A DNA stretch of 64,000 nt, from assembly GCF_023169965.1 (NCBI RefSeq), contig NZ_AP025592.1, positions 2,294,001-2,358,000 of the forward strand, written 5' to 3'. A program made the translations under genes and the position numbers. This DNA comes from Anaeromyxobacter paludicola. GTDB taxonomy: Bacteria; Myxococcota; Myxococcia; Myxococcales; Anaeromyxobacteraceae. Shown here in pieces: positions 45,185 through 64,000 of this stretch (positions within the stretch are counted from its first letter, which is position 1; the number at the start of each line of letters is the position of its first letter). The notes under the pieces were generated by a model. It saw only the letters and a list, made by a program, of their open reading frames with translations. It ran no database searches and was not told the origin of the DNA.

Positions 45185-45742
45185 CTAGAAGCTGTGGAAG
45201 GTGACGTCGTCCTCGGCGCCCGGCTGCGGGTACTCCGAGGCCCGATCCTTCTGGAAGGCGCCGCCGGTGCTCACGTACCGGATGTGCTTCTCGGTCTGGA
45301 CGCCGTCGCCGTCGAGATCGCCGTTCGCCACCACCCAGAAGTCGGAGGTGGTGCCGCTCTTCGTCGCGCTGAAGTAGTAGGAGAAGTAGCAGGCGCCGTT
45401 CACGACCAGCGGCAGCTCCTTGAAGCCGCTCATCCCCTGCGTCCAGACCCGCTTGGTCGGCGAGGGATCGCCCGGCGGGTTCTGCGGGCTGGTCCAGGTC
45501 CCGTCCTGGGTCGGGTCGGGGACGCCGGTCGAGTCGGGCTGGCCGAACCCGTGCTGCGCGCCGTAGTCGTAGAGCGACCGGGTGATGCTCTCCATGATCA
45601 TCTGCCGCTCCGCCGTGCGCGTGCGCAGGAGCGAGCGGTTGAAGCTCGGGAGCGCCACCGACGACATGAGGCCGATGATCCCGACCACCAGCATCAACTC
45701 GACCAGCGTGAAGCCGCGTGCGCTGCGGATTCGACCGCTCAT
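45185..45742 (-). CDS. Type IV pilin/pseudopilin-like protein
   Basis: 185 residues from ATG 45742. A short basic leader ends in the prepilin-peptidase site ARG/FTLVELMLVV, with Glu at +5, followed by the hydrophobic alpha-1 helix (MLVVGIIGLMSSVALPSF). The globular part includes a single Cys pair candidate and Gly/Asp-rich loops. It could be a pilin of the twitching machinery or a minor pseudopilin; no assembly ATPase or platform gene is next to it. Its ATG overlaps the stop of the upstream Ala/Pro-rich membrane protein. Confidence 0.85.
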   Translation of the reverse strand: MSGRIRSARGFTLVELMLVVGIIGLMSSVALPSFNRSLLRTRTAERQMIMESITRSLYDYGAQHGFGQPDSTGVPDPTQDGTWTSPQNPPGDPSPTKRVWTQGMSGFKELPLVVNGACYFSYYFSATKSGTTSDFWVVANGDLDGDGVQTEKHIRYVSTGGAFQKDRASEYPQPGAEDDVTFHSF

Positions 45743-46707
45743 GGCCCACCTCCGCCGGGAGGCGTGGCCCGGCGCCCGTTGGAAGGCGACATCACCATCC
45801 ACACGCCCGGGCCGATCTCCCGGACCGTCTTGCCGCGGGCCACCTGGTCGGCGCGGAACTTCTCGAAGCGGGCCCGGTCGGCGCCCGGGCCGGCGGTGAT
45901 GGTGCGCAGGTCGCTGTCGGGCGGCGCCGAGGCGCGGTACCCCTCCGGCAGGTCGGCGCCCATCGGCGGGCGCTGGCGCGCGCTCCAGTAGCCGTAGCCG
46001 TGGTAGCCGCCGGCGGCGAGCAGCGCGAGCGCGAACGCGACGGCGGTCCCGCGCCCCTTGCGCCGCTCCGGCGCGGCGTGCGGCTGGTACTCGATCACCT
46101 TGCCGGCGGCCGGCGCCGCCGGGGCGGGCCTGGGCGCCGGCGCGACGGGCGCCGCCTCCGGCGCGACGAGCCGCTGGGCCGCGCTGGTCACCGCGAAGGC
46201 CTGGTCGAGGAGCGCGGCGCGGGCCTCGGCCGCCTCGGCGCGGGCCTCGGGCGGCAGCCGCGCGGCGAGGGCGGTGAGCGCCCCGAGGCAGCCGTCCGCC
46301 TCGGCCAGCAGCGCGTCCACCGCCGGCTGATCATGGGCGCCCCCCGCGGCGAGGGCCTCCGCGCAGGCCGAGAGCCGCTCGCGCAGGGAGGCCGCCTGGG
46401 AAAGCTCGGGCAGGGCCGAGGGCGCGGGCGCCGCCGCCGCGGGGGGATGCGGAGCGACCGGCGGACGCGGCGCGACGGGCGCGGGCGCCGCCGCAGCCGG
46501 ATGCGGGGCGACCGGCGCGGGCGCGACCACCGGCGGATGCGCCGGGCCGGCCGGCGCGCGAGAGAGCACGGGAGGAGCGGCCGACGCGGGCCGCGCGCGC
46601 TGCAGCACTGGCGCGGCGGAGGCGCCCGGCGCGGGGCTCGCGAGGTGCGGCTCGACCGCTCCGTCGACAGCGGAGCCGGGCGAACGCGAGGTCTGCTCGT
46701 TCGACAT
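45739..46707 (-). CDS. Ala/Pro-rich single-pass membrane protein, unknown function
   Basis: 322 residues from ATG 46707 with GGGAGA 6 nt upstream. Residues 20-105 are a proline/alanine-rich disordered region (repeated APVAPHP-like units), 105-185 a helical segment (SLRERLSACAEALAAGGA), then a second Pro/Ala stretch, a basic cluster and one transmembrane helix near 230-250 (GTAVAFALALLAAGGYHGY), leaving about 70 residues outside. No signal peptide, so it is probably N-in/C-out. Overlaps the pilin gene (ATGA), which suggests a joint role in pilus function or regulation. Not a family I recognise. Confidence 0.65.
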   Translation of the reverse strand: MSNEQTSRSPGSAVDGAVEPHLASPAPGASAAPVLQRARPASAAPPVLSRAPAGPAHPPVVAPAPVAPHPAAAAPAPVAPRPPVAPHPPAAAAPAPSALPELSQAASLRERLSACAEALAAGGAHDQPAVDALLAEADGCLGALTALAARLPPEARAEAAEARAALLDQAFAVTSAAQRLVAPEAAPVAPAPRPAPAAPAAGKVIEYQPHAAPERRKGRGTAVAFALALLAAGGYHGYGYWSARQRPPMGADLPEGYRASAPPDSDLRTITAGPGADRARFEKFRADQVARGKTVREIGPGVWMVMSPSNGRRATPPGGGGP

Positions 46708-48784: not shown

Positions 48785-48825
48785 GGAGCGGCCCGAGCCC
48801 CAGGCTTGCGCCGCTCCTTCCTTTT
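48785..48825 (+). terminator. Intrinsic terminator after rpmE
   Basis: GGAGCGGC (48785-48792) pairs with GCCGCTCC (48810-48817) in a perfect 8-bp stem with a 17-nt loop, followed by TTCCTTTT. It lies 25 bp after the rpmE stop and before the next plus-strand gene. Confidence 0.6.
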
Positions 48826-48844
48826 CAGGGGTCCGCCCTCCGCC

Positions 48845-49171
48845 ATGCGCCTCCTCGCCGCCGCCGCCCTCACCGCGCTCTGCGTCCTCGTCGCCGGCTG
48901 CCCGGAGCAGCGGGCGGGCGTCACTCCCAGCTCGATCCCGCGCCCGGCGGCGGTGCTCATCCCCTCCCCCGACGCCGGCTACGTCCCGGCCCCGGACGCC
49001 GGCGTCCCGTCGGCCTACGCGGCCCCCTCCCTGCCGCTGCCGGCCCTGCGCCCGCCCCGTGTGCGCGCCCTCGACGGCGGCGTGACCGCGCCGCCCGCCG
49101 CGCCCGGCCCGGTCGCGCCGCTCGACGGCGGCGCCGGGGTCGGCGCCGTGGCCCCCGCGGCCGCGCGGTAG
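48845..49171 (+). CDS. Small Pro/Ala-rich lipoprotein
   Basis: 108 residues from ATG 48845. A lipoprotein signal (LTALCVLVAGC, Cys at residue 19) is followed by a low-complexity mature part rich in Pro, Ala and Asp-Ala-Gly/Asp-Gly-Gly units (SPDAGYVPAPDAGVP, ALDGGV, PLDGGAG). No domain is recognised. It lies just upstream of the sigma-54 activator on the same strand (47-bp gap). A surface or periplasmic spacer role is possible; function unknown. Confidence 0.6.
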   Translation: MRLLAAAALTALCVLVAGCPEQRAGVTPSSIPRPAAVLIPSPDAGYVPAPDAGVPSAYAAPSLPLPALRPPRVRALDGGVTAPPAAPGPVAPLDGGAGVGAVAPAAAR

Positions 49172-49218
49172 CGGCGCCGGGTTGCGACGCGCGCGCCCCG
49201 CCGCGCTAGGATGCCCGC

Positions 49219-50613
<1,395 letters not shown>

Positions 50614-50615
50614 CC

Positions 50616-50668
50616 TGCCAAATTGGCGGCGAGCCGTCCTCGGCCCGGCCGGTTTTGCCAAATTGGCA
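50616..50668 (+). promoter_or_regulatory. Two palindromic upstream activator sites for the type II operon
   Basis: TGCCAAATTGGCG (50616-50628) and TGCCAAATTGGCA (50656-50668) are copies of one 6-1-6 inverted repeat set 40 bp apart. They lie about 164 and 124 bp before the predicted start of transcription, the usual range for NtrC-type activators. A weaker third copy (AAATTGG) begins at 50711. Binding by the adjacent regulator is inference. Confidence 0.65.
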
Positions 50669-50759
50669 GCCCCGGATCGGACGGAAAGGTATCGGACGGG
50701 CTCGGGTCAGAAATTGGTCCGAAATCCAGGTCGTTATGTGCTACTCAAGGGCCTTGGCG

Positions 50760-50775
50760 TGGCACGGCCCTTGCT
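50760..50775 (+). promoter_or_regulatory. Sigma-54 (-24/-12) promoter of the type II secretion operon
   Basis: TGGCACGGCCCTTGCT matches the consensus TGGCACG-N4-TTGCW at all 12 defined positions. Start of transcription is predicted near 50786, only about 15 nt before the gspC ATG, so the leader is very short and no strong ribosome-binding site is visible. Confidence 0.8.
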
Positions 50776-50800
50776 CCTCCGGCCGCTGGGTTCCCTCTCG

Positions 50801-51772
50801 ATGCTCGACCTCTTCTTCCGCAAGTACGTCTGGGTGGTGAACGCCCTGCTGCTGTTCGCCGCGGCGTGGCTCTCCGCGAAGACGGTGAACACGGTGGTCG
50901 GCGCGGCCATCCGGCCCACGCCGCAGATCGACCTGCGGGCGGCCCCCCCGACGCCCGCGCGCCCGGTCGCTCCCGCGCAGGTCGAGCCGGACAAGATCTA
51001 CGCGCTCATCGGCCAGAAGCCACCCGCGCCCGCGCCGGCCGAGTCCGCCGAGGCCGCGCCCCCGCCGCCCCGGACCTGCGACGACGCGAAGGCCGCGCCG
51101 GTGAAGGCCACGCTCCGCGCCCAGCTCGTGGCCGGCGTGATCGCCGAGAAGCCGCAGTGGTCGATCGCCTCCATCACCGACCTCGCGAGCCGCGAGACCC
51201 GCATCTACGGCGTCGGCGACTCCTTCCAGGGCGCGAAGATCCTGGCCATCGGGCGGATGAAGGAGCCGCACGACATCACCGGCCAGGGCTACAAGATGGT
51301 CGCGGTCGTCTGCCACGACGGCCGCAAGGAGTTCATCGACTTCGAGCCCGGCGAGGCCGCCGCGCCCGCCTTCCAGGCCGCCACCGCCCCGACCCCGGGC
51401 GCCGCCGCGGCCGCCCTGCCGCCGGACGGGGTGAAGACGGTGGCCGAGAACCGCTACGACGTGAAGCGGTCGGTCCTCGACCAGAGCCTCTCCAACATGT
51501 CGAGCCTCGCCACGCAGGCGAGGATGGTCCCCAACTTCAAGAACGGCGTGGCCAACGGCTTCAAGCTGTTCTCGATCCAGCCCAACTCGCTCTACGCGTC
51601 GGTCGGCATCGAGAACGGCGACGTGGTCACCAAGATCAACGGCTACGAGATCAACTCGCCCGACAAGGCGCTCGAGGTCTACCAGAAGCTCAAGGAGGCG
51701 AGCCACATCAGCCTCGAGCTCGAGCGCAACGGCCAGCCGATCCGCAAGGAGTACAACGTCACCGGCCCGTAG
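50801..51772 (+). CDS. gspC: Type II secretion inner-membrane protein GspC
   Basis: 323 residues from ATG 50801 (MLDLFFRKYVWVVNALLLFAAA). A cytoplasmic stub, one membrane helix, a Pro-rich linker (APPTPARPVAPAQV), the homology region that contacts the secretin (ATLRAQLVAGVIAEKPQWSI to EFIDFE), and a C-terminal PDZ domain (FKLFSIQPNSLYASVGIENG, VVTKINGYEI, LELERNGQP). Connects the inner-membrane platform to GspD and selects substrates. An upstream open stretch would pass through the promoter and is rejected as coding. Confidence 0.95.
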   Translation: MLDLFFRKYVWVVNALLLFAAAWLSAKTVNTVVGAAIRPTPQIDLRAAPPTPARPVAPAQVEPDKIYALIGQKPPAPAPAESAEAAPPPPRTCDDAKAAPVKATLRAQLVAGVIAEKPQWSIASITDLASRETRIYGVGDSFQGAKILAIGRMKEPHDITGQGYKMVAVVCHDGRKEFIDFEPGEAAAPAFQAATAPTPGAAAAALPPDGVKTVAENRYDVKRSVLDQSLSNMSSLATQARMVPNFKNGVANGFKLFSIQPNSLYASVGIENGDVVTKINGYEINSPDKALEVYQKLKEASHISLELERNGQPIRKEYNVTGP

Positions 51773-51791: not shown

Positions 51792-54503
51792 ATGCGCAAG
51801 CTCCTCCTCCTCACGCTCCTCCTCCCGGTCCTCGCCACCTCGCAGTCGCTGCCGCCGCAGCGCGCCGGCCGGCCCCCGCGCTACCTCCCGCAGGAGCCCG
51901 CCGGGACGCCGCAGCCGGCGCCCCCGCGCCAGCCGCTGCCGCCCGGCGCCGCCGGGGTGCCGCCGTCCGGCGCGCCCGCCCCGGCCGCGGGCGGGGCCGG
52001 CGGCGACGCCGTGATCTCGCGCTCCGAGGGCAAGTGCCAGCCGATGGAGGGGCACTTCCTCCTCGCCTTCAACAAGGCCGAGATCGTGGACGTGCTCGAG
52101 CAGGCCAGCCGCTGGACCTGCCGCAATTTCGCCTACACCGACGAGATCGCGCGCGGGAAGATCACCCTCGTCTCGAAGACGCCGGTCTCGGCGGAGGAGG
52201 CCTACGCGGCGTTCCTGGCCGCCCTCTCCGCCAACAACATCGCCGTCTACCCGTCGGGCAAGTACCACAAGCTCATCCGCATCGCCGACGCCAAGAAGAC
52301 GCCCATCCCCACGCTCACCGACGGCGCCGAGGCGCCGGCCACGGAGCAGCCGGTCACCAAGATCATCCGGCTGCGCTACTCGGATCCCGACCAGCTGCGC
52401 GGCATCCTCGGCAACTTCACCTCCCCGCAGGGCGCCGACATCCAGGTGGTGGCGCCGGACCTCCTCATCGTCACCGACATCGGCCTCAACGTCCGGCGCG
52501 TCGAGAAGCTCATCGAGGCGGTGGACCGGCCGGGCGGCGGCGACCTCATCCGCGTGGTGCAGGTGCAGTACGCCTCGGCCCGCGACCTCGCCGAGAAGGT
52601 CAACCAGGTCTTCCAGCAGTCGCCCGCCACCCCCGGCCGCCCCGGCGCCGGCCGGCGCACGCTCATCGGCGGCGTGGCCCCCTCGACGCCCGGCGCGCCC
52701 GCCGCCGCCCCCGCCGCCGGCGGGACCGAGCCGTCCGAGATCTCCATCTCCAAGGTCCTCGCCGACGAGCGGACCAACAAGCTCATCGTCATCGCCGACG
52801 ACAAGAGCTTCCAGCGCATCCTCGACCTCGTGAAGCAGCTCGACCTGCCCACGAGCGGCGAGGGGACCATCCACGTGGTGTTCCTCAAGAACGCCAACGC
52901 CGAGGACCTCGCGCAGACGCTGCAGGCGCTGGCGCAGGGCCAGGCCTCCGCCCGCAAGCAGCAGGGCGCCACCGGGGCGCCGGCGGGCCTCCCGGTCACG
53001 CCGGCCGCGGCTCCCGGCCAGCAGGCCGCGCAGGCCGCCCTCGCCGGCGGCCACGGCCCGGCCACCAGCGCCGACCTCTTCAGCGGCGAGGTGAAGGTCA
53101 CCGCCGACAAGACCCAGAACGCCCTCGTGGTGATGGCGAGCGCCACCGACTTCGCCGTGATGACGCGGCTCATCGACAAGCTCGACCGGCCGCGCCGCCA
53201 GGTGTTCGTCGAGGCGGTCATCATGGAGGTCAACCTCAACAACGAGAACCAGTTCGGCGTCTCGATGCACGGGGTCATCCCGTACAAGACCTCGGACGGC
53301 ACGGGCTACATCCCGCTCGGCTCCGAGACGGGCCGCGTGAACTCGTTCAACGTCTCGAGCCTCATCTCCCTCGGCGGCTTCCTCACCGGCCTCGCCGGCC
53401 CGACCTCGGCCCAGCTCAAGGACGTGCTGCCGGGCGTCCCGAGCGTGTCGCTGCTCGTGCAGGCCCTGCAGACCTCCTCCGACGTGAACGTGCTCTCGAC
53501 GCCGCACCTGCTCGCCTCGGACAACGAGGAGTCGGAGATCACCGTCGGCCAGAACGTCCCGTTCCAGGCCGGCTACTCGGCGCTGAGCGGCCTCTCGAGC
53601 ACCACCGGGACCACCGCCGCCGGCTCCACCCTCGGCACCCTCGGCCTGCTCTCGGGCGGCCTCAACAGCCTCTACGCCCCGATCCAGCGGCAGAACGTGG
53701 AGCTGAAGCTCCGCATCAAGCCGCAGATCAACGAGGGCGACAACGTGCGGCTCGACCTCGAGGAGCAGACCGAGGAGATCGCCTCCAAGGATCCGACCCT
53801 CGGCCCCACCACCGCCAAGCGGAGCGTGAAGACCAAGATCGTCGCCAAGGATCAGAACACCATCGTGATCGGCGGCCTCATCCAGGAGCGTACGGTCCAG
53901 GGCGTCCACAAGATCCCGGTCCTCGGCGACATCCCGATCCTGGGCTGGCTCTTCCGCGACCAGGTCACCACCAAGACCAAGACCAACCTGCTGCTGTTCC
54001 TCACGCCGTACATCATCCGCGACGAGTCGGACTACAAGCGCATCCTCGAGCGGAAGCGGCGGGAGCAGCAGGAGTTCACCGAGCAGTTCTACGGCAAGAC
54101 CGCCCGCTACGACGTCCCGGTGGACTACGCCCGGAAGGCGGGCGCCTACACCCGCATCCACAAGGACATGGACGTCGAGCTCCTCAAGCTCGAGAACGGC
54201 GGACCCGGCTCGCCCGGCGAGCGCACCGTCCGGCCGCCGGCGCAGGACCAGGAGCTCGACGAGCGGAACCTGCCGCCGTCCGCGACCCCTGGCGCGGGCG
54301 CGCCCGCCCCGGGCGGCGCTGGCGCGCCCGCGCGGCCGGCCCCCGCGACCCCGCCCGCGACCCAGGCGCCGGCACCCGCTCCGACCCAGGCGCCGGCGCC
54401 CGCTCAGCCCCAGGCCCCGGCGCCCGCTCCGGCGCCGGCGAGCCCGCCCGCAGGGCAGGCGGCGCCGTCGCCCGGCCCGCAGGCTCCGGCTCCCGGGCGC
54501 TGA
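51792..54503 (+). CDS. gspD: Type II secretion secretin
   Basis: 903 residues with a signal peptide (MRKLLLLTLLLPVLATSQS). N0 domain near 80-150, then N1-N3 repeats (IIRLRYSDPDQLRGILGNF; VVQVQYASARDLAEKVNQVF; VVFLKNANAEDLAQTLQAL) separated by Ala/Pro/Gly inserts, and the secretin domain (VFVEAVIMEVNLNNENQFGV, DVNVLSTPHLLASDNEESEI, VGQNVPFQ, IKTKIVAKDQNTIVIGGLIQ, VPVLGDIPILGWLFR-like). The final 90 residues are a Pro/Ala repeat tail. Forms the outer-membrane channel. Starts 20 bp after gspC. Confidence 0.97.
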   Translation: MRKLLLLTLLLPVLATSQSLPPQRAGRPPRYLPQEPAGTPQPAPPRQPLPPGAAGVPPSGAPAPAAGGAGGDAVISRSEGKCQPMEGHFLLAFNKAEIVDVLEQASRWTCRNFAYTDEIARGKITLVSKTPVSAEEAYAAFLAALSANNIAVYPSGKYHKLIRIADAKKTPIPTLTDGAEAPATEQPVTKIIRLRYSDPDQLRGILGNFTSPQGADIQVVAPDLLIVTDIGLNVRRVEKLIEAVDRPGGGDLIRVVQVQYASARDLAEKVNQVFQQSPATPGRPGAGRRTLIGGVAPSTPGAPAAAPAAGGTEPSEISISKVLADERTNKLIVIADDKSFQRILDLVKQLDLPTSGEGTIHVVFLKNANAEDLAQTLQALAQGQASARKQQGATGAPAGLPVTPAAAPGQQAAQAALAGGHGPATSADLFSGEVKVTADKTQNALVVMASATDFAVMTRLIDKLDRPRRQVFVEAVIMEVNLNNENQFGVSMHGVIPYKTSDGTGYIPLGSETGRVNSFNVSSLISLGGFLTGLAGPTSAQLKDVLPGVPSVSLLVQALQTSSDVNVLSTPHLLASDNEESEITVGQNVPFQAGYSALSGLSSTTGTTAAGSTLGTLGLLSGGLNSLYAPIQRQNVELKLRIKPQINEGDNVRLDLEEQTEEIASKDPTLGPTTAKRSVKTKIVAKDQNTIVIGGLIQERTVQGVHKIPVLGDIPILGWLFRDQVTTKTKTNLLLFLTPYIIRDESDYKRILERKRREQQEFTEQFYGKTARYDVPVDYARKAGAYTRIHKDMDVELLKLENGGPGSPGERTVRPPAQDQELDERNLPPSATPGAGAPAPGGAGAPARPAPATPPATQAPAPAPTQAPAPAQPQAPAPAPAPASPPAGQAAPSPGPQAPAPGR

Positions 54504-54542: not shown

Positions 54543-56309
54543 ATGCCCGATCTCGTCAGCCCCGCCCCCGCCGCCCCGCAGGCCTCCCTCTCCGGTCGCC
54601 TGATCGGGGAGATCCTCGTCGCCACCGCCGGTCTCTCCCCCGAGAAGCTCGAGGAGGCCCTCGCCGCCCAGCGCGGCCCGGAGGCGGGCAGCCGCCTGGG
54701 AGAGGTGCTGCTCCGCATGAAGGCGGTGAGCGAGGACGAGGTGCTGCGCGCGCTCTCGATCCAGCTCGACCTCCCGTTCGCGGAGCGCATCGACCCGGAG
54801 TCGGTGCCGCCCGAGCTGGTGGCGAAGGTGCCCATCAACTTCGCGAAGCAGGCCCGGGTGGTGCCGCTCGGCCGGCTCGACGGCGCCGTCCGGCTCGCGG
54901 TGGCCGACCCGCTCGACACCGCCAGCCAGGAGAGCGTCGCGCTCCTGCTCGGCCTGCCGGTGCTGCCGGAGGTGGTCCCGCCGCAGGTCATCGTGGACGC
55001 CATCAACCAGGTCTACGACCGCGCCGCCGACGAGAACGCCCGGCTCATGGAGGACCTCGAGACCGAGGACCTCGAGAGCGTGGCGCACGAGCTCGAGGAG
55101 CCGACCGACCTGCTCGAGGCCGACGACGAGGCCCCGATCATCCGGCTCGTGAACTCGCTCCTCTTCCGCGCCGTGAAGGAGCGGGCGAGCGACATCCACA
55201 TCAACCCCGAGGAGCGCGACCTCTCGGTGCGGTACCGCATCGACGGCGTGCTGCGCGAGGTGATCCGCCCTCCGAAGCGGATCCAGGCCTCCATGGCGAG
55301 CCGCATCAAGATCATGGGCGGCCTCAACATCGCCGAGAAGCGGCTCCCGCAGGACGGCCGCATCCGCATCAAGATCGCCGGCAAGGACGTGGACATCCGC
55401 CTCTCGACGGTGCCCACCGCCTACGGCGAGCGCATCGTGATGCGCCTCCTCGACAAGTCGAACGTGCTGCTCGACCTGGGCGAGATCGGCTTCGAGGACT
55501 GGCAGCTCCGGATCATGGACCAGCTCATCACGCGGTCCCACGGCATCGTGCTCGTGACCGGCCCCACCGGCTCCGGCAAGACCACCACGCTCTACGCCGC
55601 CCTCTCGAAGATCAACTCGCCCGACCTCAACATCCTCACCATCGAGGACCCGGTCGAGATCCCGCTCAAGGGCGTCGGCCAGGTGCAGGTGAACCCGAAG
55701 ATCGACCTCACCTTCGCCTCCGGCCTGCGCGCCTTCCTCCGCCAGGACCCCGACGTGGTGATGGTGGGCGAGATCCGCGACCTCGAGACCGCCGAGATCG
55801 CCATCCAGGCCTCCCTCACCGGCCACCTGGTGTTCTCGACCATCCACACCAACGACGCCGCCGGCGCGATCACCCGCCTCGCCGACATGGGCGTGCAGCC
55901 GTTCCTCGTGGCCTCGTCGCTGGTGGGCGTGCTGGCGCAGCGGCTCGTGCGCGTGCTCTGCCCCGAGTGCAAGCGGGCCTACGTGCCGACGGCGGAGGAG
56001 CTCGCCCAGGCCAGCATCACCCCCAAGATCCTGGCCAGCGCCGGCAACCCCAGCCACCTCTACAAGGCGGTGGGCTGCCCGGCCTGCCAGCAGACCGGGT
56101 ACCAGGGCCGGACCGGCATCTACGAGCTCATGCTCGTGGACGACGATCTGCGGCAGCTCATCCTGCGGAACGTGGACTCCTCCACCATCAAGCGCAAGGC
56201 GGCCGAGCACGGGATGCTCTCGCTGCTCGAGCACGGCGCCTACAAGGTCGCGATGGGGATCACCACCGCCGCCGAGGTGCTGTCGGTGACGGCGGAGGAC
56301 CTGCATTGA
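54543..56309 (+). CDS. gspE: Type II secretion assembly ATPase
   Basis: 588 residues. N-terminal MshEN-type domain (LIGEILVATAGLSPEKLEEAL), then the motor with SDIHINPEERDLSVRYRIDG, Walker A GPTGSGKTTTLYAAL, Asp box and Walker B (LRQDPDVVMVGEIRD), His box (STIHTNDAAGAITRLADMG) and the four-cysteine Zn module (CPEC and CPAC). Drives pseudopilus assembly at the inner membrane. A 39-bp gap follows gspD. Confidence 0.97.
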   Translation: MPDLVSPAPAAPQASLSGRLIGEILVATAGLSPEKLEEALAAQRGPEAGSRLGEVLLRMKAVSEDEVLRALSIQLDLPFAERIDPESVPPELVAKVPINFAKQARVVPLGRLDGAVRLAVADPLDTASQESVALLLGLPVLPEVVPPQVIVDAINQVYDRAADENARLMEDLETEDLESVAHELEEPTDLLEADDEAPIIRLVNSLLFRAVKERASDIHINPEERDLSVRYRIDGVLREVIRPPKRIQASMASRIKIMGGLNIAEKRLPQDGRIRIKIAGKDVDIRLSTVPTAYGERIVMRLLDKSNVLLDLGEIGFEDWQLRIMDQLITRSHGIVLVTGPTGSGKTTTLYAALSKINSPDLNILTIEDPVEIPLKGVGQVQVNPKIDLTFASGLRAFLRQDPDVVMVGEIRDLETAEIAIQASLTGHLVFSTIHTNDAAGAITRLADMGVQPFLVASSLVGVLAQRLVRVLCPECKRAYVPTAEELAQASITPKILASAGNPSHLYKAVGCPACQQTGYQGRTGIYELMLVDDDLRQLILRNVDSSTIKRKAAEHGMLSLLEHGAYKVAMGITTAAEVLSVTAEDLH

Positions 56310-56347: not shown

Positions 56348-57577
56348 ATGCCCGTCTTCGAGTACAAGGCGCTCGACGCCGGCGGCAAGGCGGTCGGTGG
56401 CCTCAAGGAGGCCGACTCGCCGCGCACGCTCCGCACCGTGCTGCGCCGCGACGGCCTCTTCCTCACCGAGGTGGTGGGGCAGAAGCAGGCCGCCGAGGCG
56501 GCCGCGCGCGACGTCCGCAAGCGCTGGCTCACCGGCCGGATCAAGGCCGACGACCTCGCCATCATGACCCGCCAGCTCGCGGTGCTGGTGGGGGCGGGCG
56601 TCCCGCTCGTGGAGGCGCTCACCGCGCTCGTGGACCAGGTGGAGCACGAGCGGCTCAAGCGGATCGTCTCCGACGTGCGCCAGCGCGTGAACGAGGGCAG
56701 CTCGCTCGCCGACGCCCTGGCCTCGCACCCGCGCGTCTTCACCAACCTCTACGTGAACATGATCCGCGCCGGCGAGTCCTCGGGCGCGCTCGAGATCGTG
56801 CTCGTCCGGCTCGCCGACTTCACCGAGAACCAGGCCCGCCTGCGCTCCAAGATCGTGGGCACCCTCACCTACCCGGCGGCGATGCTCGTCATCGGCACGG
56901 TGATCATGGCCATCCTGTTCACGGTGGTGATCCCCAAGATCACCCGCATCTTCGACGAGACGCGGGTGACGCTGCCGCTCACCACCCGCGCCCTCATCGG
57001 CTTCTCCACCTTCGTCCACGACTGGTGGTGGGCGGGCGGGCTCCTCACCATCGTGGCCGGCGTGCTCGTCGCGCGCTGGAAGGAGACCCCGTCCGGCCGC
57101 GCCGCCTGGGACCGCCGCGCCCTCACCGTGCCCATCTTCGGCGGGCTCATCCGGCAGATCGCCATCGCCCGCTTCTCGCGCACGCTGTCCACCCTGCTGA
57201 AGAGCGGCGTCCCGCTCCTCACCGCCATGGACATCGTGAAGAACATCGTCGGCAACGTCCGGCTCCAGTCGGTGATCGAGGAGTCGGCGGCCGCCATCCG
57301 CGAGGGCGAGAGCATCGCCGCGCCGCTGAAGCGGTCCGGCGAGTTCCCGCCGCTCGTCTACCACATGGTCGCCATCGGCGAGCGCTCCGGGCAGCTCGAG
57401 GAGATGCTCAAGAACGTCGCCGACGCCTACGACTCGCAGGTGGAGACCAAGATCGGCGCGCTCACCTCGCTGCTCGAGCCGGTGATGATCGTCGGCATGG
57501 GCGTGGTGGTGGCGCTGATCGTCTTCTCGATCCTGATGCCGATCCTGCAGATCAACAACCTGGCCGGAGGAGCCTAG
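56348..57577 (+). CDS. gspF: Type II secretion platform protein
   Basis: 409 residues, polytopic inner-membrane protein at the centre of the assembly platform. Typical start MPVFEYKALDAGGKAVGG, two GspF cytoplasmic repeats (IMTRQLAVLVGAGVPLVEAL and FSRTLSTLLKSGVPLLTAMD), the ERSGQLEEMLKNVADAYDSQ motif, and three membrane helices (AAMLVIGTVIMAILFTVVIP; the last MIVGMGVVVALIVFSILMPI). Length normal. Confidence 0.97.
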   Translation: MPVFEYKALDAGGKAVGGLKEADSPRTLRTVLRRDGLFLTEVVGQKQAAEAAARDVRKRWLTGRIKADDLAIMTRQLAVLVGAGVPLVEALTALVDQVEHERLKRIVSDVRQRVNEGSSLADALASHPRVFTNLYVNMIRAGESSGALEIVLVRLADFTENQARLRSKIVGTLTYPAAMLVIGTVIMAILFTVVIPKITRIFDETRVTLPLTTRALIGFSTFVHDWWWAGGLLTIVAGVLVARWKETPSGRAAWDRRALTVPIFGGLIRQIAIARFSRTLSTLLKSGVPLLTAMDIVKNIVGNVRLQSVIEESAAAIREGESIAAPLKRSGEFPPLVYHMVAIGERSGQLEEMLKNVADAYDSQVETKIGALTSLLEPVMIVGMGVVVALIVFSILMPILQINNLAGGA

Positions 57578-57582
57578 CCCCC

Positions 57583-57978
57583 ATGCAGACCCAGCGACGC
57601 CGCGAGCGCGGCATGACCCTCATCGAGATCATGGTGGTGATCACCATCCTCGGCCTCATCGCCGCCGCGGTGGCGGTGAACGTGGTGAGCAACCTCTCCG
57701 ACGCCCGCATCAAGCAGGCCAAGGCCGACCTCCACACCCTCGAGAACTGCCTCGACCTCTACAAGATCGACAAGGGCCGGTACCCGACGACGGAGGAGGG
57801 GCTGCAGGCGGTGGTGGCCGCCGGCAAGTGCAAGAACCAGCTCAAGGACCCGTGGAGCCACGACTACGTCTACCTCTACCCGGGCCAGGTCCACCCCGAC
57901 GGCTTCGACCTCAAGAGCTACGGCGCCGACGGCGCGCCGGGCGGAGAAGGCGAGAACGCCGACATCGTGAACCGCTGA
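57583..57978 (+). CDS. gspG: Major pseudopilin
   Basis: 131 residues. Prepilin leader MQTQRRRERG/MTLIEIMVVI with Glu at +5, hydrophobic helix, and the GspG-type C-terminal part (YKIDKGRYPTTEEGLQAVV, DPWSHDYVYLYPG, DLKSYGADGAPGGEGENADI) with the calcium-binding Asp/Gly loop. Main shaft subunit of the pseudopilus. Starts 5 bp after gspF. Confidence 0.97.
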   Translation: MQTQRRRERGMTLIEIMVVITILGLIAAAVAVNVVSNLSDARIKQAKADLHTLENCLDLYKIDKGRYPTTEEGLQAVVAAGKCKNQLKDPWSHDYVYLYPGQVHPDGFDLKSYGADGAPGGEGENADIVNR

Positions 57979-57986
57979 GGAAGCTT

Positions 57987-58634
57987 ATTCTCGCGCAAGG
58001 CACACGAGCCCGAGCCGAGCAGGGCTTCACCCTCATCGAGCTCCTGATCGTCATCGCCATCGTGGCGATGGTGTCGGCGGCCGCCATCCCGGCGCTCGAC
58101 TCGGTGACCGGCGCGAACGCGCGCGGCGCCGCCGGGGAGCTCTCGGCGGCGGCCCGCTACCTCTACGACCTCGCCATGCTGCGCCACCAGACCTGCCGGC
58201 TCGCGCTCGACCTCGACCACCAGCGCTGGTGGGCCGAGTGCACCGAGGGTCGCTACCTCGCCTCCCGCGAGGCGCGGAGCCAGCAGGACCAGGCGCGCGA
58301 GGAGGACGACGACCAGCTCGCCGAGCGGATCCCGGACGAGCGCGACGCGGAGCGGCGCAAGCTCCTCGCCCGCGCCCGGTTCGGCGAGTTCAAGGACCGG
58401 CTCGCGGCCAAGCGCGCGCTGCCCGGCGCCGCCGCGTTCACCGAGGTCTGGACCGAGCACCAGCGCGAGCCCTGGTCGCGCGGCATGAGCTACGTCTACT
58501 TCTACCCGGGCGGCCGGACCGAGGCGGCGCGGATCCCGGTGGCCGACGGCTCCAACGTTTACTCGGTGGTGCTGCAGCCCTTCACCGGCCGCGCCCGCGT
58601 GGTCACGGGCAAGCCGGAGGTGCCGCGGTCGTGA
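57987..58634 (+). CDS. gspH: Minor pseudopilin GspH, probably started at an ATT codon
   Basis: 215 residues if started at ATT 57987: a 13-residue leader ending AEQG/FTLIELLIVI with Glu at +5, then the alpha-1 helix and a globular domain that is longer than usual (about 170) owing to a charged helical insert (QQDQAREEDDDQLAERIPD). No ATG, GTG or TTG lies between the gspG stop and the leader. GAGGA sits 5 nt before the ATT; a CTG overlapping the gspG stop is the other option. The nearest ordinary start would add about 53 residues inside gspG and no leader. A sequencing error is possible but not needed. Confidence 0.85.
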   Translation: MLAQGTRARAEQGFTLIELLIVIAIVAMVSAAAIPALDSVTGANARGAAGELSAAARYLYDLAMLRHQTCRLALDLDHQRWWAECTEGRYLASREARSQQDQAREEDDDQLAERIPDERDAERRKLLARARFGEFKDRLAAKRALPGAAAFTEVWTEHQREPWSRGMSYVYFYPGGRTEAARIPVADGSNVYSVVLQPFTGRARVVTGKPEVPRS

Positions 58635-59389
58635 GGCGCGGGTTCACGCTGCTCGAGGTGATGGTGGCGCTCGCCATCCTCGCCACCGCGCTCATGGCCA
58701 TGGCCGACCTCGGCGGCAGCGCGCTCGAGAACCACCTCTACGCGCGCCAGCTCTCGACCGCCACGCTCCTCGCCCGCGGCAAGCTCGCCGAGCTCGAGGA
58801 GAAGTACGACGACGACGGCTTCAAGGACTTCGACGAGCGCGAGGAGGGCACCTTCGACGGGCAGGGCCACCCGGAGATCCGCTGGCGCGCCGAGGTGGTG
58901 AAGCCGGACGGCGACCTCGGGCCGGACCAGCTCATGGGGCTCCTCACCGGCATGGGCGGCGAGGCGGGCGCCACGCAGGGGCTCATGGACCAGCTCTTCG
59001 GGGGGAAGCAGGGCCAGCAGTCCCAGCAGGGCAGCGGGCCCACCCAGGGCGCGAGCCCGATGGGCGCGGCCATGGGCGGCATGCTGCAGACCCAGCTGCA
59101 GACCTTCGGCGAGCAGCTCAAGAAGTCGCTGCGGGAGCTCCGCTTCACCGTGGCGTGGAAGGAGGGCAAGAAGGACCGCCAGTTCACGGTCACCTCCCAC
59201 CTCGTGGTGCTGAACCCCCGCGCCCCCGGCGGCGCCCGCGGCGACAGCCCGGACGTCCCGCCCAACGTCGCCCCCGCCGCCGGCCTCCCCGGCGCCACGG
59301 GGCAGGGCACCGGCGCGACCACCGGGACCGGCACGACGACCGGCACCGGCACGAGCGGCACCCGCACCGGCGCGACGGTGGTCCGATGA
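58631..59389 (+). CDS. gspI: Minor pseudopilin GspI with long C-terminal extension
   Basis: 252 residues from GTG 58631: MRRG/FTLLEVMVALAILATAL, a minimal prepilin leader with Glu at +5, followed by the GspI pattern NHLYARQLSTATLLARGKLA and IRWRAEVV. GspI is commonly about 125 residues; here a Gly/Gln/Met-rich insert (residues about 105-155, GGKQGQQSQQGSGPTQ) and a Gly-Thr repeat tail (GTGATTGTGTTTGTGTSG) double the length. The GTG overlaps the gspH stop. Forms the pseudopilus tip with GspJ and GspK. Confidence 0.9.
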   Translation: MRRGFTLLEVMVALAILATALMAMADLGGSALENHLYARQLSTATLLARGKLAELEEKYDDDGFKDFDEREEGTFDGQGHPEIRWRAEVVKPDGDLGPDQLMGLLTGMGGEAGATQGLMDQLFGGKQGQQSQQGSGPTQGASPMGAAMGGMLQTQLQTFGEQLKKSLRELRFTVAWKEGKKDRQFTVTSHLVVLNPRAPGGARGDSPDVPPNVAPAAGLPGATGQGTGATTGTGTTTGTGTSGTRTGATVVR

Positions 59390-60042
59390 GGCGCGGGTTC
59401 ACGCTCATCGAGGTGATGATCGCCATCGGCATCTCGGCCGTGATCGGCGTGATGGCGCTCGGCTCGTTCCAGCGCGCCCACGCCGCGCGCGAGCTCACGC
59501 AGGCCCAGGAGGAGCGGTTCGGCGGCGCGCGGCGCACGCTCACCCGCATGGCCCGCGAGCTCTCCATGGCCTACCTGTCGGAGCACTACGACCACAAGCG
59601 CTTCCGCGAGCGCCCCACCCTCTTCCGCGGCAAGGACGGCGGCCGGCGCGACGCCCTGCTCTTCACGAGCTTCTCGCACCAGCGGCTGGTCCGCGACGCG
59701 AAGGAGTCGGACCAGGCGCTGCTCGAGTACACCGTGGACTCCGATCCCGAGCGGCCGGGGAAGCTGGCGCTGTTCCGGCGCGAGAAGGTCCACCTCGACG
59801 AGGATCCGGACCGCGGGGGCGACAAGCAGCTGGTCCTGCAGAACGTCGCCGGCTTCGACGCGCAGTTCTGGGACTGGAAGAAGCAGGAGTGGGTGAACGA
59901 CTGGGTCTCCTCGTCGGTGGAGCGGCAGGGGACCCTGCCCACCCGCGTGAAGGTCCGGCTCACCCTCGAGATGCCCGACGGCAAGGAAGAGAACTTCGAG
60001 ACGCAGGCCCGGGTGGCGATCATCCGGCCCTTGGACTTCTGA
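59386..60042 (+). CDS. gspJ: Minor pseudopilin GspJ
   Basis: 218 residues: MRRG/FTLIEVMIAIGISAVIGVM, then the GspJ pattern (RTLTRMARELSMAYLSEHYD, LLFTSFSHQRLVRDAKESDQ, LEYTVDSDPERPGKLALFRRE, VRLTLEMPDGKEE). Tip-complex partner of GspI and GspK. ATGA overlap with gspI and one-base overlap with gspK, so the pseudopilin genes are translated as a coupled block. Confidence 0.94.
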   Translation: MRRGFTLIEVMIAIGISAVIGVMALGSFQRAHAARELTQAQEERFGGARRTLTRMARELSMAYLSEHYDHKRFRERPTLFRGKDGGRRDALLFTSFSHQRLVRDAKESDQALLEYTVDSDPERPGKLALFRREKVHLDEDPDRGGDKQLVLQNVAGFDAQFWDWKKQEWVNDWVSSSVERQGTLPTRVKVRLTLEMPDGKEENFETQARVAIIRPLDF

Positions 60043-61337
60043 TGAGATCGCGCGGCGCCGCCCTCCTGCTGGTCATCACCGCCATCGCCATCCTGACGGC
60101 GATCTCGGTGGACCTCGCCTACGAGTCCCGGGTCTCGATCGAGGCGGCGGCGGGCGCGCGCGACGAGCTGCGCGCCACCTACCTCGCGAAGAGCGCGGTC
60201 GGGTTCTCGCGCCTCGTGCTCCACTTCCAGCAGCAGCTCGGGCAGGCGTCGGCCGCGGTCGGGCAGCTCGGGCAGGTGGCGCAGGCCAGCGGGCTCCCGG
60301 CGCAGCTCGCGCAGCAGCTCCAGGGGACCCTCGGGGGCGGCGCGGGAGGCGGCACGCTCTCCATCCGGCTCTGGGAGCTCGTGCCGGTGGACTCCTCGAT
60401 GACCTCGCTCTTCCTCTCTCGCGGCGCCCGGAGCGCCGCCGCCCCGCCGCGCGAGGGCGCGGCCGCGGCGGCCGGCACGGCCCGCGGCTTCGGCGACTTC
60501 GAGGGCTCCTTCCACGCCCGGATCGAGGACGAGGACCGGAAGATCAACCTGCCGCAGTTCAACGGCCTCGGGGCCCTCCCGGCGGCGCAGCTGCAGCGCT
60601 TCCTCCAGCTCGTGAAGGATCCGAAGTACGACTTCCTCTTCGACCAGGACGACGCCAACGGGATCCGGGTCAACCGGAACGACACCGCCGCGGCCATCAA
60701 GGACTGGGTGGACGAGGACGAGGTCTCGTCGGCGGTGACCGGCAACCCGCTCACCCCCTTCGAGCAGGGCTTCTCCGACGAGAACGCCGTGTACGACCGG
60801 CTCCCCGACCGCTACAAGGCCAAGAACGCGCGCTTCGACTCGCTCGAGGAGCTGTTCCTCGTGGCCGGCATCTCCGACGCCTTCATGGCCGCCTTCGCCG
60901 ACCGGCTCACGGTCTACCCCGACGTGAACGGGCAGGTGAACGTGAACACCGACGACCCGATGCAGATCCTCACCAACCTGCTCGTGATGTCCGACCCGCC
61001 GGGCGTGCTGCAGGGGCCGCTGCTCGACCCCGGCTTCCCGCAGCGCTTCCAGGCCGCGCTGGCGCAGCTCAAGCCCCTGCCGTTCCTCTCGGTGAGCCCG
61101 CAGCAGTTCGCGACCGTGGCCCAGGCGCTCGGGGTCAAGATCCAGGCGGTCTACCTCCAGGCGCAGAACAGCGACAACCGGGCGGTCTTCTCCGACCACT
61201 CGAGCACCTTCCACATCCACGCCACCGGCCGGGCCGGCGGCGTGCAGAAGACGATCGACGCGGTGGTGACGCTCGACACCCGGGCCGGCGCGCTGGCGCA
61301 GGACCTCGGGCGCGTCCTCCACTGGAGCGAGGAGTAG
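60042..61337 (+). CDS. gspK: Pseudopilus tip protein GspK
   Basis: 431 residues. Leader-like start MRSRG/AALLLVITAIAILTAIS without the Glu at +5, as usual for GspK, which caps the pseudopilus. The T2SSK domain follows: DEDRKINLPQFN, AAIKDWVDEDE, YKAKNARFDSLEELFLVAGI (the alpha domain with helix-hairpin-helix), and VNVNTDDPMQILTNLL. A Gly/Ala/Gln-rich insertion lies near residues 65-105. Starts on the last base of the gspJ stop. Confidence 0.94.
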   Translation: MRSRGAALLLVITAIAILTAISVDLAYESRVSIEAAAGARDELRATYLAKSAVGFSRLVLHFQQQLGQASAAVGQLGQVAQASGLPAQLAQQLQGTLGGGAGGGTLSIRLWELVPVDSSMTSLFLSRGARSAAAPPREGAAAAAGTARGFGDFEGSFHARIEDEDRKINLPQFNGLGALPAAQLQRFLQLVKDPKYDFLFDQDDANGIRVNRNDTAAAIKDWVDEDEVSSAVTGNPLTPFEQGFSDENAVYDRLPDRYKAKNARFDSLEELFLVAGISDAFMAAFADRLTVYPDVNGQVNVNTDDPMQILTNLLVMSDPPGVLQGPLLDPGFPQRFQAALAQLKPLPFLSVSPQQFATVAQALGVKIQAVYLQAQNSDNRAVFSDHSSTFHIHATGRAGGVQKTIDAVVTLDTRAGALAQDLGRVLHWSEE

Positions 61338-61340
61338 CGC

Positions 61341-62903
61341 ATGGCGCAGCAGATCCTGGGGCTGGACCTCGGCGCGGACGAGGTGAGGGGCGTGCTCCTC
61401 GAGGGGAGCTTTCGCGGGCAGCAGGTGACGGCGGCGGCCTCCGCCCCGGTCGCCCCGCCGGCCGAGGGCGAGGAGGCGCCGGACCTGCTCTCGCGCCAGG
61501 CGGCGGCGGCGCAGGCGCTGCTCGCGGGCCAGGGGTGGGCGTGGGACGTGGCCATCGTGGCGCTGCCGGGCGCCTCGGCGGCCGCCCTCGCGGTCACCCT
61601 CCCCTTCACCGACCTGCGCCGGATCGAGCAGACCGTCGGCTTCGAGGTGGAGGGGCAGATCCCGTTCGACCTCGACCAGGCGGCCTGGGACTGGCAGCCG
61701 CTCGGGCAGCGCGAGGGCCGGACCGACCTGCTCGTCGCGGTCACCCGCAAGGAGGAGCTCGCGGCGCTCCTGGCGGCGCTCGCCGGGGCGGGGCTCGACC
61801 CGCGAGCGGTGGTGCCCCCGGCGGTGGCCTACGCCTCGCTCTTCGCGGGCGCGGTGGCGACCTCTGCCCCGGCCCCGGCGCCGGCCGCGAGCGACGCCGC
61901 CGCTCCCGAAGCCGGCGCGGGCGAGCCGGCCTCGCCCCCGGCCGCTCCGGCGCCGTGCGCGCCGGTGGAGGGGGTGCTCGATCTGCGCGCCGGTCGGGCC
62001 AGCCTCGCGCTCGTGCGCGGCACCGAGCTGCAGGCGGGCCGCACCTTCGGGCTCGGCGCCGGCGATCCGGTCCGCGCGCTCTCCCGCGAGCTGCGCGCCA
62101 CGCTGCGCGCCTGGCGCGCCCGGCTCGGCCCGGGGCACCACCCGGTGGCGCGGCTCCACCTCGCGGGCGAGGCGGCCCGGCTCCCGGGGCTGCCGGAGGC
62201 GCTGGCGCCGGAGCTCGAGGGGCCGGTCGCGCCGCTCGCGCTCGCGCCCTGGGCGGCGTCGCGGCTGCCGGACGGGGCCGGCCCGGACTACGCGCTCGCC
62301 CTGGCGCTGGCGCTCCGGGGCCAGCAGGGCGCCCGCGCCGGCCGGCTCAACCTGCGGCGCCGCGACCTCGCCTTCACCCGCGACTTCGAGCACCTGCGCG
62401 GCAAGGTGGCGCGGCTCGCCGTCTACGCGGCCCTGGTGCTGGCGCTCGCCCTCACGAGCGCGGTGGTGCGGGTGGTGGCGCTCTCGCACCAGGAGTCGCT
62501 CCTCGACGGGGCGCTCTGCGAGACCACCAAGAAGGTCGTCGGGCGCTGCCTCGACAACTTCGAGACCGCCGAGGCGGTGCTCAAGGGGCGCGGCACGCCG
62601 TCGGCGGCCATCCCCCGGATCTCGTCGGTGGACGTGCTGGCCGAGCTCGAGCAGCGCGCCCCGGACGTCCCGATGAAGCTCGAGCGGATCGAGATCACCC
62701 GCGAGAAGCTGCACCTCCAGGGCACCACCGAGGCGGCCGAGAACGTGGACCGGATCGTGACCAGCCTGCGCGGCTCGCGCTGCTTCGGCGACGCGCGCTC
62801 GGGCGGCGCCCGCAAGCGCGCCAGCGACGGCAAGTTCGAGTTCAGCGTGGACTCGGACCTCACCTGCGACGTCACCGCCGCCGCCCAGGGCGGGAAGGGC
62901 TAG
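61341..62903 (+). CDS. gspL: Type II secretion platform protein GspL
   Basis: 520 residues. The cytoplasmic N-terminal part has an actin-like/PilM-type fold: ILGLDLGADEVRGVLLEGS, DVAIVALPGASAAALAVTLP and VEGQIPFDLDQAAWDW, with an Ala/Pro insert near residues 170-205. One membrane helix lies near 358-380 (LAVYAALVLALALTSAVVRV) and a periplasmic ferredoxin-like domain ends the protein (VPMKLERIEITREKLHLQG). Links GspE to GspM and the pseudopilus. Closest in style to the PilM/N-like GspL of deltaproteobacteria. Confidence 0.9.
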   Translation: MAQQILGLDLGADEVRGVLLEGSFRGQQVTAAASAPVAPPAEGEEAPDLLSRQAAAAQALLAGQGWAWDVAIVALPGASAAALAVTLPFTDLRRIEQTVGFEVEGQIPFDLDQAAWDWQPLGQREGRTDLLVAVTRKEELAALLAALAGAGLDPRAVVPPAVAYASLFAGAVATSAPAPAPAASDAAAPEAGAGEPASPPAAPAPCAPVEGVLDLRAGRASLALVRGTELQAGRTFGLGAGDPVRALSRELRATLRAWRARLGPGHHPVARLHLAGEAARLPGLPEALAPELEGPVAPLALAPWAASRLPDGAGPDYALALALALRGQQGARAGRLNLRRRDLAFTRDFEHLRGKVARLAVYAALVLALALTSAVVRVVALSHQESLLDGALCETTKKVVGRCLDNFETAEAVLKGRGTPSAAIPRISSVDVLAELEQRAPDVPMKLERIEITREKLHLQGTTEAAENVDRIVTSLRGSRCFGDARSGGARKRASDGKFEFSVDSDLTCDVTAAAQGGKG

Positions 62904-62905
62904 CC

Positions 62906-63469
62906 GTGGAATACCTCCGGAAGCTGCGCAGCGATCTCGAGAACGCCCTCTCCCGCCTCTCCCCGCGCGAGCGGGTGATGGTGGCCGCCGCCGCCGCCGC
63001 GGTGGTGCTCTTCGTCCTCCTCATGGTCTCCACCTCCGTCTCGCGCTCGATCCGCGCCCGCGAGTCGCGCATCGACGACAAGACCCGGGTCCTGTCGGAG
63101 ATCGGCCGTCTGGCCCAGGGCTACCGGTCGGCGCAGGCCGAGCGCCAGGCGATGGAGTCGCGGCTCAAGGGGCCGCCCATCCAGCTCATGAGCTACGTCT
63201 CGCAGGCGGGCTCGCGGCTCGGGATCGAGGTCAACGACCTGCGCCCGGGGCAGAGCACCAGCGGGACCGGCAGCGACCAGGTGCTCGAGGACAGCGTCGA
63301 GGTGAACCTGGCCCGCATCGACCCGCCGCGCCTGGTGCAGCTCCTGCGCGCGCTGGAGGCGGGGCCCGGGGTGGTCAAGGTCCGCCGGCTCCGCATCTCG
63401 ACCCGCAGCGACGATCCCAACCTGGTGGACGTGACCCTGCTCGTCGCCACCTACCAGCTCAAGGGGTAA
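62906..63469 (+). CDS. gspM: Type II secretion platform protein GspM
   Basis: 187 residues from GTG 62906 (VEYLRKLRSDLENAL). The pattern is that of GspM: an amphipathic cytoplasmic start with LSPRERVMVAAAAAAVVLFV, one membrane helix near 27-45, a coiled-coil (SRIDDKTRVLSEIGRLAQGY) and a periplasmic ferredoxin-like domain (VEVNLARIDPPRLVQLLRAL, VKVRRLRISTRSDDP). Binds GspL and GspE. Starts 2 bp after the gspL stop. Confidence 0.9.
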   Translation: MEYLRKLRSDLENALSRLSPRERVMVAAAAAAVVLFVLLMVSTSVSRSIRARESRIDDKTRVLSEIGRLAQGYRSAQAERQAMESRLKGPPIQLMSYVSQAGSRLGIEVNDLRPGQSTSGTGSDQVLEDSVEVNLARIDPPRLVQLLRALEAGPGVVKVRRLRISTRSDDPNLVDVTLLVATYQLKG

Positions 63470-63473
63470 CCCC

Positions 63474-64000
63474 GTGGAACTGCCCGCCCTCAAGCCCTGG
63501 CAGCGCCGGCTCGCCTACGGCGCCTTCACCGTTCTCGCCTTCCTCTTCGCGCTCCAGCGCACCTTCCCGTCCGACGCGGTCAAGGAGCGGCTGGTGCTGG
63601 CGGCGGCGGCGCAGGGCTGGCAGCTCTCGATGGACGACATCCGCCCGCGCGGCTTCCCCGGCGTGCGCGCCACGGGGGTCACGCTCGAGTCGGCGGAGGG
63701 GACGCGCATCCCCGTGGACGAGCTCGACGCCACGCTGCGGCTCTGGCCGCTCCTGCTCGGCCGGCGCGGGGTCTCCTTCGAGGCGAAGCTGTACGACGGC
63801 CGGGTGAAGGGGCTCTCCGAGGAGGGGCGCACCGCGAGCCGGCTCGCCCTCACCGCCTCGGGCATCGACCTCGCCCGGGCGGCGGCGGTGAAGAAGGTCT
63901 CGGGGCTCGACCTCGCGGGCACCCTCTCGGCCGACGTGGACGTCACCATCGACTCCAAGGACGCCGCCCGGAGCAACGGCCACGCCGACCTCGACGTGCA
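63474..64000 (+). CDS. gspN: Type II secretion protein GspN (partial, 3' end outside window)
   Basis: Starts GTG 63474 (VELPALKPWQRRLAYGAF), 4 bp after gspM. Visible are 175 residues: one N-terminal membrane helix (AFTVLAFLFALQRTFP) and a beta-rich AsmA/GspN-like periplasmic region (LSMDDIRPRGFPGVRATGVT, LDATLRLWPLLLGRRGVSFE, YDGRVKGLSEEG, LAGTLSADVDVTIDSKDAA). GspN is found at this position in deltaproteobacterial type II operons. Its role in secretion is accessory and not well defined. The gene runs off the window. Confidence 0.8.
   Translation, partial: MELPALKPWQRRLAYGAFTVLAFLFALQRTFPSDAVKERLVLAAAAQGWQLSMDDIRPRGFPGVRATGVTLESAEGTRIPVDELDATLRLWPLLLGRRGVSFEAKLYDGRVKGLSEEGRTASRLALTASGIDLARAAAVKKVSGLDLAGTLSADVDVTIDSKDAARSNGHADLDV

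Follow-up and report, generated by a model that had tools for sequence, protein, structure and literature searches.

A conserved putative sigma-54 control region before the type II secretion operon of Anaeromyxobacter paludicola and its probable regulon in myxobacteria

We analysed a 64-kb stretch of Anaeromyxobacter paludicola DNA (the window) and found that the control region of its type II secretion (T2SS) operon is very probably part of a conserved myxobacterial sigma-54 regulon, in which an Nla4-type activator would serve both the gspC-N operon and the MXAN_2561/MXAN_2562 locus. The arrangement is not peculiar to this genome. The sites, the promoters, the gene order, their conservation and exclusivity and the presence of rpoN were all observed directly. 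An initial annotation had described a regulator-enhancer-promoter-operon unit dedicated to the T2SS operon. Phylogenetic footprinting and co-conservation of the recognition helix strongly support such a unit, and the gspC promoter is indeed conserved; 'dedicated' proved too narrow in view of the MXAN_2561/MXAN_2562 locus, a second T2SS and, in two species, another predicted outer-membrane protein.

The control region and the operon it precedes

The sequence was read from 48800 to 51600, and the following elements were found before gspC.

49219-50613, + strand: NtrC-type response regulator / sigma-54 activator, 464 aa (Pfam Response_reg, Sigma54_activat, AAA lid, HTH_8)
50616-50628, no strand: distal enhancer-like palindrome TGCCAAATTGGCG, starting 2 bp past the regulator stop codon; kept in 19/19 family genomes
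50656-50668, no strand: proximal enhancer-like palindrome TGCCAAATTGGCA; kept in 19/19 family genomes
50760-50775, + strand: sigma-54 -24/-12 promoter TGGCACGGCCCTTGCT, 12/12 consensus; TGGCA[CT]N5TTGCT invariant in 19/19 family genomes

The palindromes are spaced by exactly 40 bp and the perfect 12/12 element lies 25 bp before the gspC ATG (50801), both as the initial annotation had it. With TGGC-N7-TTGC and its GG and GC at the fixed spacing, the element has the form of a sigma-54 (RpoN) promoter, and transcription is predicted to start near 50786. The genome carries a single copy of rpoN (G000:C1:3455898-3457358; 437 bits, above cut-off). A third half-like site had been proposed at 50711. 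It lacks conservation and was rejected: in relatives the place holds an AT-rich block (GGATTT...GTTG), only loosely kept, and no palindrome half. This block (window 50690-50745; GGATTT...TGT...GTTG in relatives) sits between the site pair and the promoter and is possibly a bend or protein site.

The genes downstream (gspC, D, E, F, the pseudopilins, L and M) identify a type II secretion operon.

50801-51772, + strand: gspC (NF041515 GspC_delta, 272 bits, cut-off 150)
51792-54503, + strand: gspD, secretin (TIGR02517, 534 bits)
54543-56309, + strand: gspE, ATPase (TIGR02533, 719.7 bits)
56348-57577, + strand: gspF (TIGR02120, 498 bits)
57583-57978, + strand: gspG, major pseudopilin (prepilin motif GMTLIEIMVVITILG)
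57990-58634, + strand: gspH, start approximate (prepilin motif GFTLIELLIVIAIV)
58631-59389, + strand: gspI, start approximate (prepilin motif GFTLLEVMVALAIL)
59386-60042, + strand: gspJ, start approximate (prepilin motif GFTLIEVMIAIGIS)
60042-61337, + strand: gspK, start approximate (from gene order and sequence)
61341-62903, + strand: gspL (Pfam T2SSL, PilM_2, PilN)
62900-63469, + strand: gspM (Pfam T2SSM)
63474-64000 and past the window end, + strand: gspN-like (by position; 304 aa in L204:475-1389)

The N-terminus of GspE matched an MshE-type c-di-GMP-binding motif (NF053729, 44.3 bits, cut-off 38), which suggests a second, post-translational control of the gspC-N T2SS. A lone prepilin-like gene (GFTLVELMLVVGIIG) was seen a few kb before the operon, at 45185-45802 on the minus strand.

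Rarity and conservation of the sites

Within the window the palindrome occurs in two places only (chance mean 0.12). The exact TGGCACG-N4-TTGC was found once in the window and five times in the 4.59 Mb genome, or ~0.07 per 64 kb. When one mismatch was allowed, the promoter motif gave 63 matches genome-wide versus 56 for the reversed control. As this barely exceeds the control, the promoter by itself is weak evidence, and the low enrichment would fit a chance meeting of a promoter-like element and repeats in one GC-rich window. Against such a coincidence, conservation and exclusivity are far above those of shuffles and reversed patterns; we regard it as already refuted, with a residual probability close to nil.

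A genome-wide search for the site, which the initial annotation had proposed as a way to define the regulon, found exactly two paired palindromes: the pair at gspC and one further pair, before an MXAN_2561-like gene (control 0). Searching 24 genomes of the family for the promoter with two sites gave 39 matches and no control matches. The matches fell at gspC (19), before the MXAN_2561-like gene (17) and at other places (3). Of the last three, two stand before predicted outer-membrane protein genes that resemble each other, in G003 and G004; the third (G020), on the opposite strand and overlapping the MXAN_2561 sites, was taken as fortuitous. A scan of real myxobacterial DNA (481 kb) matched the full architecture 17 times, every time at gspC or the MXAN_2561-like target. 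The predicted outer-membrane protein genes with paired sites and a sigma-54 promoter were seen in two Anaeromyxobacter species (L175:795-1469 and L203:1171-1902, both minus strand).

Of the 24 family genomes, 19 (6 genera) have a GspC homologue; the five without one are all at most 81% complete. In an alignment of the 19 upstream regions both palindromes and TGGCA[CT]-N5-TTGCT were kept throughout, while the other intergenic DNA was not. Across the order, GspC was found in 92/99 genomes, and deduplication left 59 upstream regions, 19 from the family and 40 from other loci. The site pair together with a sigma-54 promoter was present in 51/59 (19/19 and 32/40, respectively). The 40 other loci had a promoter in 38 cases, a site in 39 and the pair plus promoter in 32, where dinucleotide shuffles gave expectations of 0.34, 2.5 and 0.000. 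The site consensus widens order-wide to TGNCA-N3-TGNCA, and the Myxococcaceae gspC pair is imperfect (TGACAGGCCGTCA / TGACAATTTGTCC, ~33 bp apart). Ten more distant loci kept the site pair in 8/10 cases and a strict promoter in 3/10, the strict -24/-12 element not being found in the remaining seven; the gspC of G025 has lost the control elements.

The second T2SS of Myxococcaceae (20 upstream regions, L238-L257) had been taken as the intended negative control. It carried TGGC-N7-TTGC in 16/20 regions and a TGACA/TGTCA-type site in 17/20, with the pair in 0/20. With such promoter and site counts it fails as a negative control, and we therefore extend the regulon to this second T2SS. Usually a sigma-54 promoter of its own is present there, and ~100 bp upstream of it a single TGACA-N3-TGTCA-type site.

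The adjacent regulator and Nla4

The gene directly upstream had been described as a complete NtrC-type activator with receiver domain, and this was borne out by Pfam: the protein has a receiver, a sigma-54 AAA+ domain with lid and a Fis-type HTH. These domains and the GAFTGA loop in its translation place it in the NtrC family; the translation also contains TDLMMPG. It scored below the NCBIfam equivalog cut-offs for NtrC (430.7/558.6 bits), AtoC (455/714) and PrsR (412.2/502.6), and these three names were rejected.

Of the order genomes examined, nearly all have the regulator gene immediately before gspC, at 60-76% identity. In 14 genomes it was non-adjacent or seen incompletely, and 13 of these have an orthologue elsewhere, with 54-67% identity versus 44-53% for the next paralogue, a lead of 6-20 identity points. 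Where the recognition helix of a detached orthologue was read, it was GDKxxAAxLLGIxxRTIYRK or close to it, and the second-best paralogues had quite different helices. Only G107 (1.8 Mb) has no orthologue, and there the sites and the promoter are missing as well. This co-conservation of the recognition helix is the best computational evidence that the regulator would read these sites, as judged from sequence. It could be, though we think it unlikely, that the sigma-54 circuit is real and a different activator acts on the palindromes, the adjacent gene being a neighbour with other targets. There are dozens of NtrC-type paralogues per genome, and distant genomes keep the sites although the regulator gene is not beside gspC. 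The order-wide adjacency, the separation of the 13 orthologues from their paralogues with their RTIYRK-type helices, and the joint loss in G107 all argue for the adjacent regulator.

The flanks of the regulator were read in the window and in a Myxococcaceae genome (L205), and in neither does a kinase gene adjoin it. A candidate cognate kinase was seen in one distant genome, where a hybrid histidine kinase (L215:2879-4345) is convergent with the regulator orthologue. In four genomes of distant Myxococcota (L214, L217, L218, L220) similar FKBP-like lipoproteins with the motif ASGLAYKVL are encoded beside the detached regulator.

For Myxococcus xanthus the published locus tags are Mxan_2516 for nla4 (PMC2875238), MXAN2514 for GspD and MXAN2505 for GspK (PMC3222651). 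From the first two tags gspC would be MXAN_2515 and Nla4 its adjacent regulator, and the same regulator-gspC gene order was read in L205. On the basis of locus tags and this gene order we propose that the regulator at 49219-50613 is the syntenic counterpart of Nla4. Nla4 is a developmental regulator whose known phenotypes concern growth, ppGpp and sporulation (PMC2875238, PMC7910581). The open-access literature that we searched contains no link of Nla4 to type II secretion or to MXAN_2561 as direct targets. We tentatively raise the possibility, while leaning against it, that both the myxobacterial T2SS and the core surface-protein locus answer directly to Nla4 as their master switch. On that reading nla4 mutants would show their growth, ppGpp and fruiting-body defects because surface-protein display and secretion fail, and direct stringent-response control would not be the cause.

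The surface-protein locus, the proposed mechanism and known systems

The second target lies 110 kb from gspC.

G000:C1:2233963-2234013: second site pair, 40 bp spacing
G000:C1:2232996-2233859, leftward: MXAN_2561-like surface protein gene with its own sigma-54 promoter TGGCGTCGGGCTTGCA

A signal peptide was recognised by eye in the encoded protein, which also matches fibronectin type III weakly and has a C-terminal GGCSS-helix-RKRRR. It matched NF045522 (MXAN_2561 family MXYO-CTERM-anchored protein) with 116.7 bits over residues 5-287, full-length and below the cut-off of 150, and by this match we call it MXAN_2561 family-like only. The tail of GGC, transmembrane helix and Arg-rich end, with its invariant Cys, was found in 14/14 aligned homologues; TIGR03901 was not reported at E<=0.01, and because this MYXO-CTERM model went unreported despite the invariant Cys, the tail is termed MYXO-CTERM-like. 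The next gene encodes an MXAN_2562-family outer-membrane barrel (NF040596, 197.6 bits, cut-off 100).

MXAN_2561-like homologues are present in 22/24 family genomes. All 22 main copies have TGGC-N7-TTGCA right before the start codon, and nearly all have two recognisable sites. A site with a sigma-54 promoter was found at 21/22 family loci and 30/30 Myxococcaceae-type loci; the latter have the site in every case (TGACA-N3-TGGCA in 29) and TGGC-N7-TTGCT, the promoter being preceded by one full site and a weaker second one. At the MXAN_2561-like gene (L051 and 21 homologues) the start codon lies only ~13-17 nt past the -12 GC, which would leave a sigma-54 transcript with almost no leader.

This locus bears on the idea that the palindromes are an unrelated repressor's operator, or a conserved non-regulatory element tied for example to where the regulator gene ends, with a coincidental promoter. 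Palindromic DNA can have several roles, and the distal site does begin just past the regulator stop codon. The same pair, however, precedes the MXAN_2561-like gene, where an NtrC gene is absent upstream. There the sites always lie ~65-170 bp before the sigma-54 promoter with spacing largely kept, and an invariant TGGC-N7-TTGC is common to the promoters of both targets. We consider the operator or non-regulatory reading very improbable, and favour activation from these sites.

The M. xanthus T2SS carries MYXO-CTERM proteins to the cell surface (PMC11980579). The MXAN_2561/MXAN_2562 surface-protein locus probably depends on the T2SS, and the MXAN_2561-like protein may be a client of the gspC-N machine. 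TraA, the kin-recognition receptor, is a MYXO-CTERM protein moved to the surface by the T2SS.

In the mechanism that we propose, dimers of the Nla4-type regulator would bind the two tandem TGNCA-N3-TGNCA palindromes, ~3-4 helical turns apart. Phosphorylation by an unlinked kinase would lead to assembly of the AAA+ ring, DNA would loop over the ~90 bp between sites and promoter, and sigma-54 RNA polymerase, waiting in a closed complex on TGGC-N7-TTGC, would then open the DNA. The outputs would be the whole gspC-N operon and the secreted MXAN_2561-like protein with its MXAN_2562-family barrel, such that the cell would co-induce an export machine and a surface-protein locus. Protein-DNA binding, phosphorylation, looping, sigma-54 dependence and a biological signal are what we infer from the DNA here.

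No regulator of the myxobacterial T2SS was described in the open-access literature searched. All the parts are of known kinds; going by that literature, the regulon is new, and so is the proposal to assign Nla4 to it. The analysis provides an order-wide promoter and binding-site model and a named candidate regulator, nla4, already mutated in M. xanthus, together with a co-regulated surface-protein/barrel locus probably tied to the T2SS.

In canonical NtrC-glnA enhancers, two tandem palindromes precede a -24/-12 promoter by ~100-160 bp. The layout before gspC is alike, with two tandem palindromes upstream of such a promoter, but the recognition sequence is TGNCA-N3-TGNCA, the targets are others and there is no linked kinase. 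Nla4 is likewise an NtrC-type sigma-54 activator, and its locus tag stands beside those of T2SS genes (MXAN2514, MXAN2505). In Aquincola and Zoogloea, PrsR/RpoN provides sigma-54 control of PEP-CTERM genes, whose sorted surface protein is tagged at its C-terminus (PMC9850573), and PrsR too is an NtrC-type regulator. That system is an exosortase/exopolysaccharide one without a T2SS operon, and the window protein scores 412 bits on the PrsR model, below its cut-off of 502.6. Switching of a whole secretion machine by a sigma-54 activator is described for HrpRS (T3SS) and T6SS clusters (cited in PMC3162934); those are T3SS and T6SS machines, whereas here it is a T2SS with a co-regulated surface protein.
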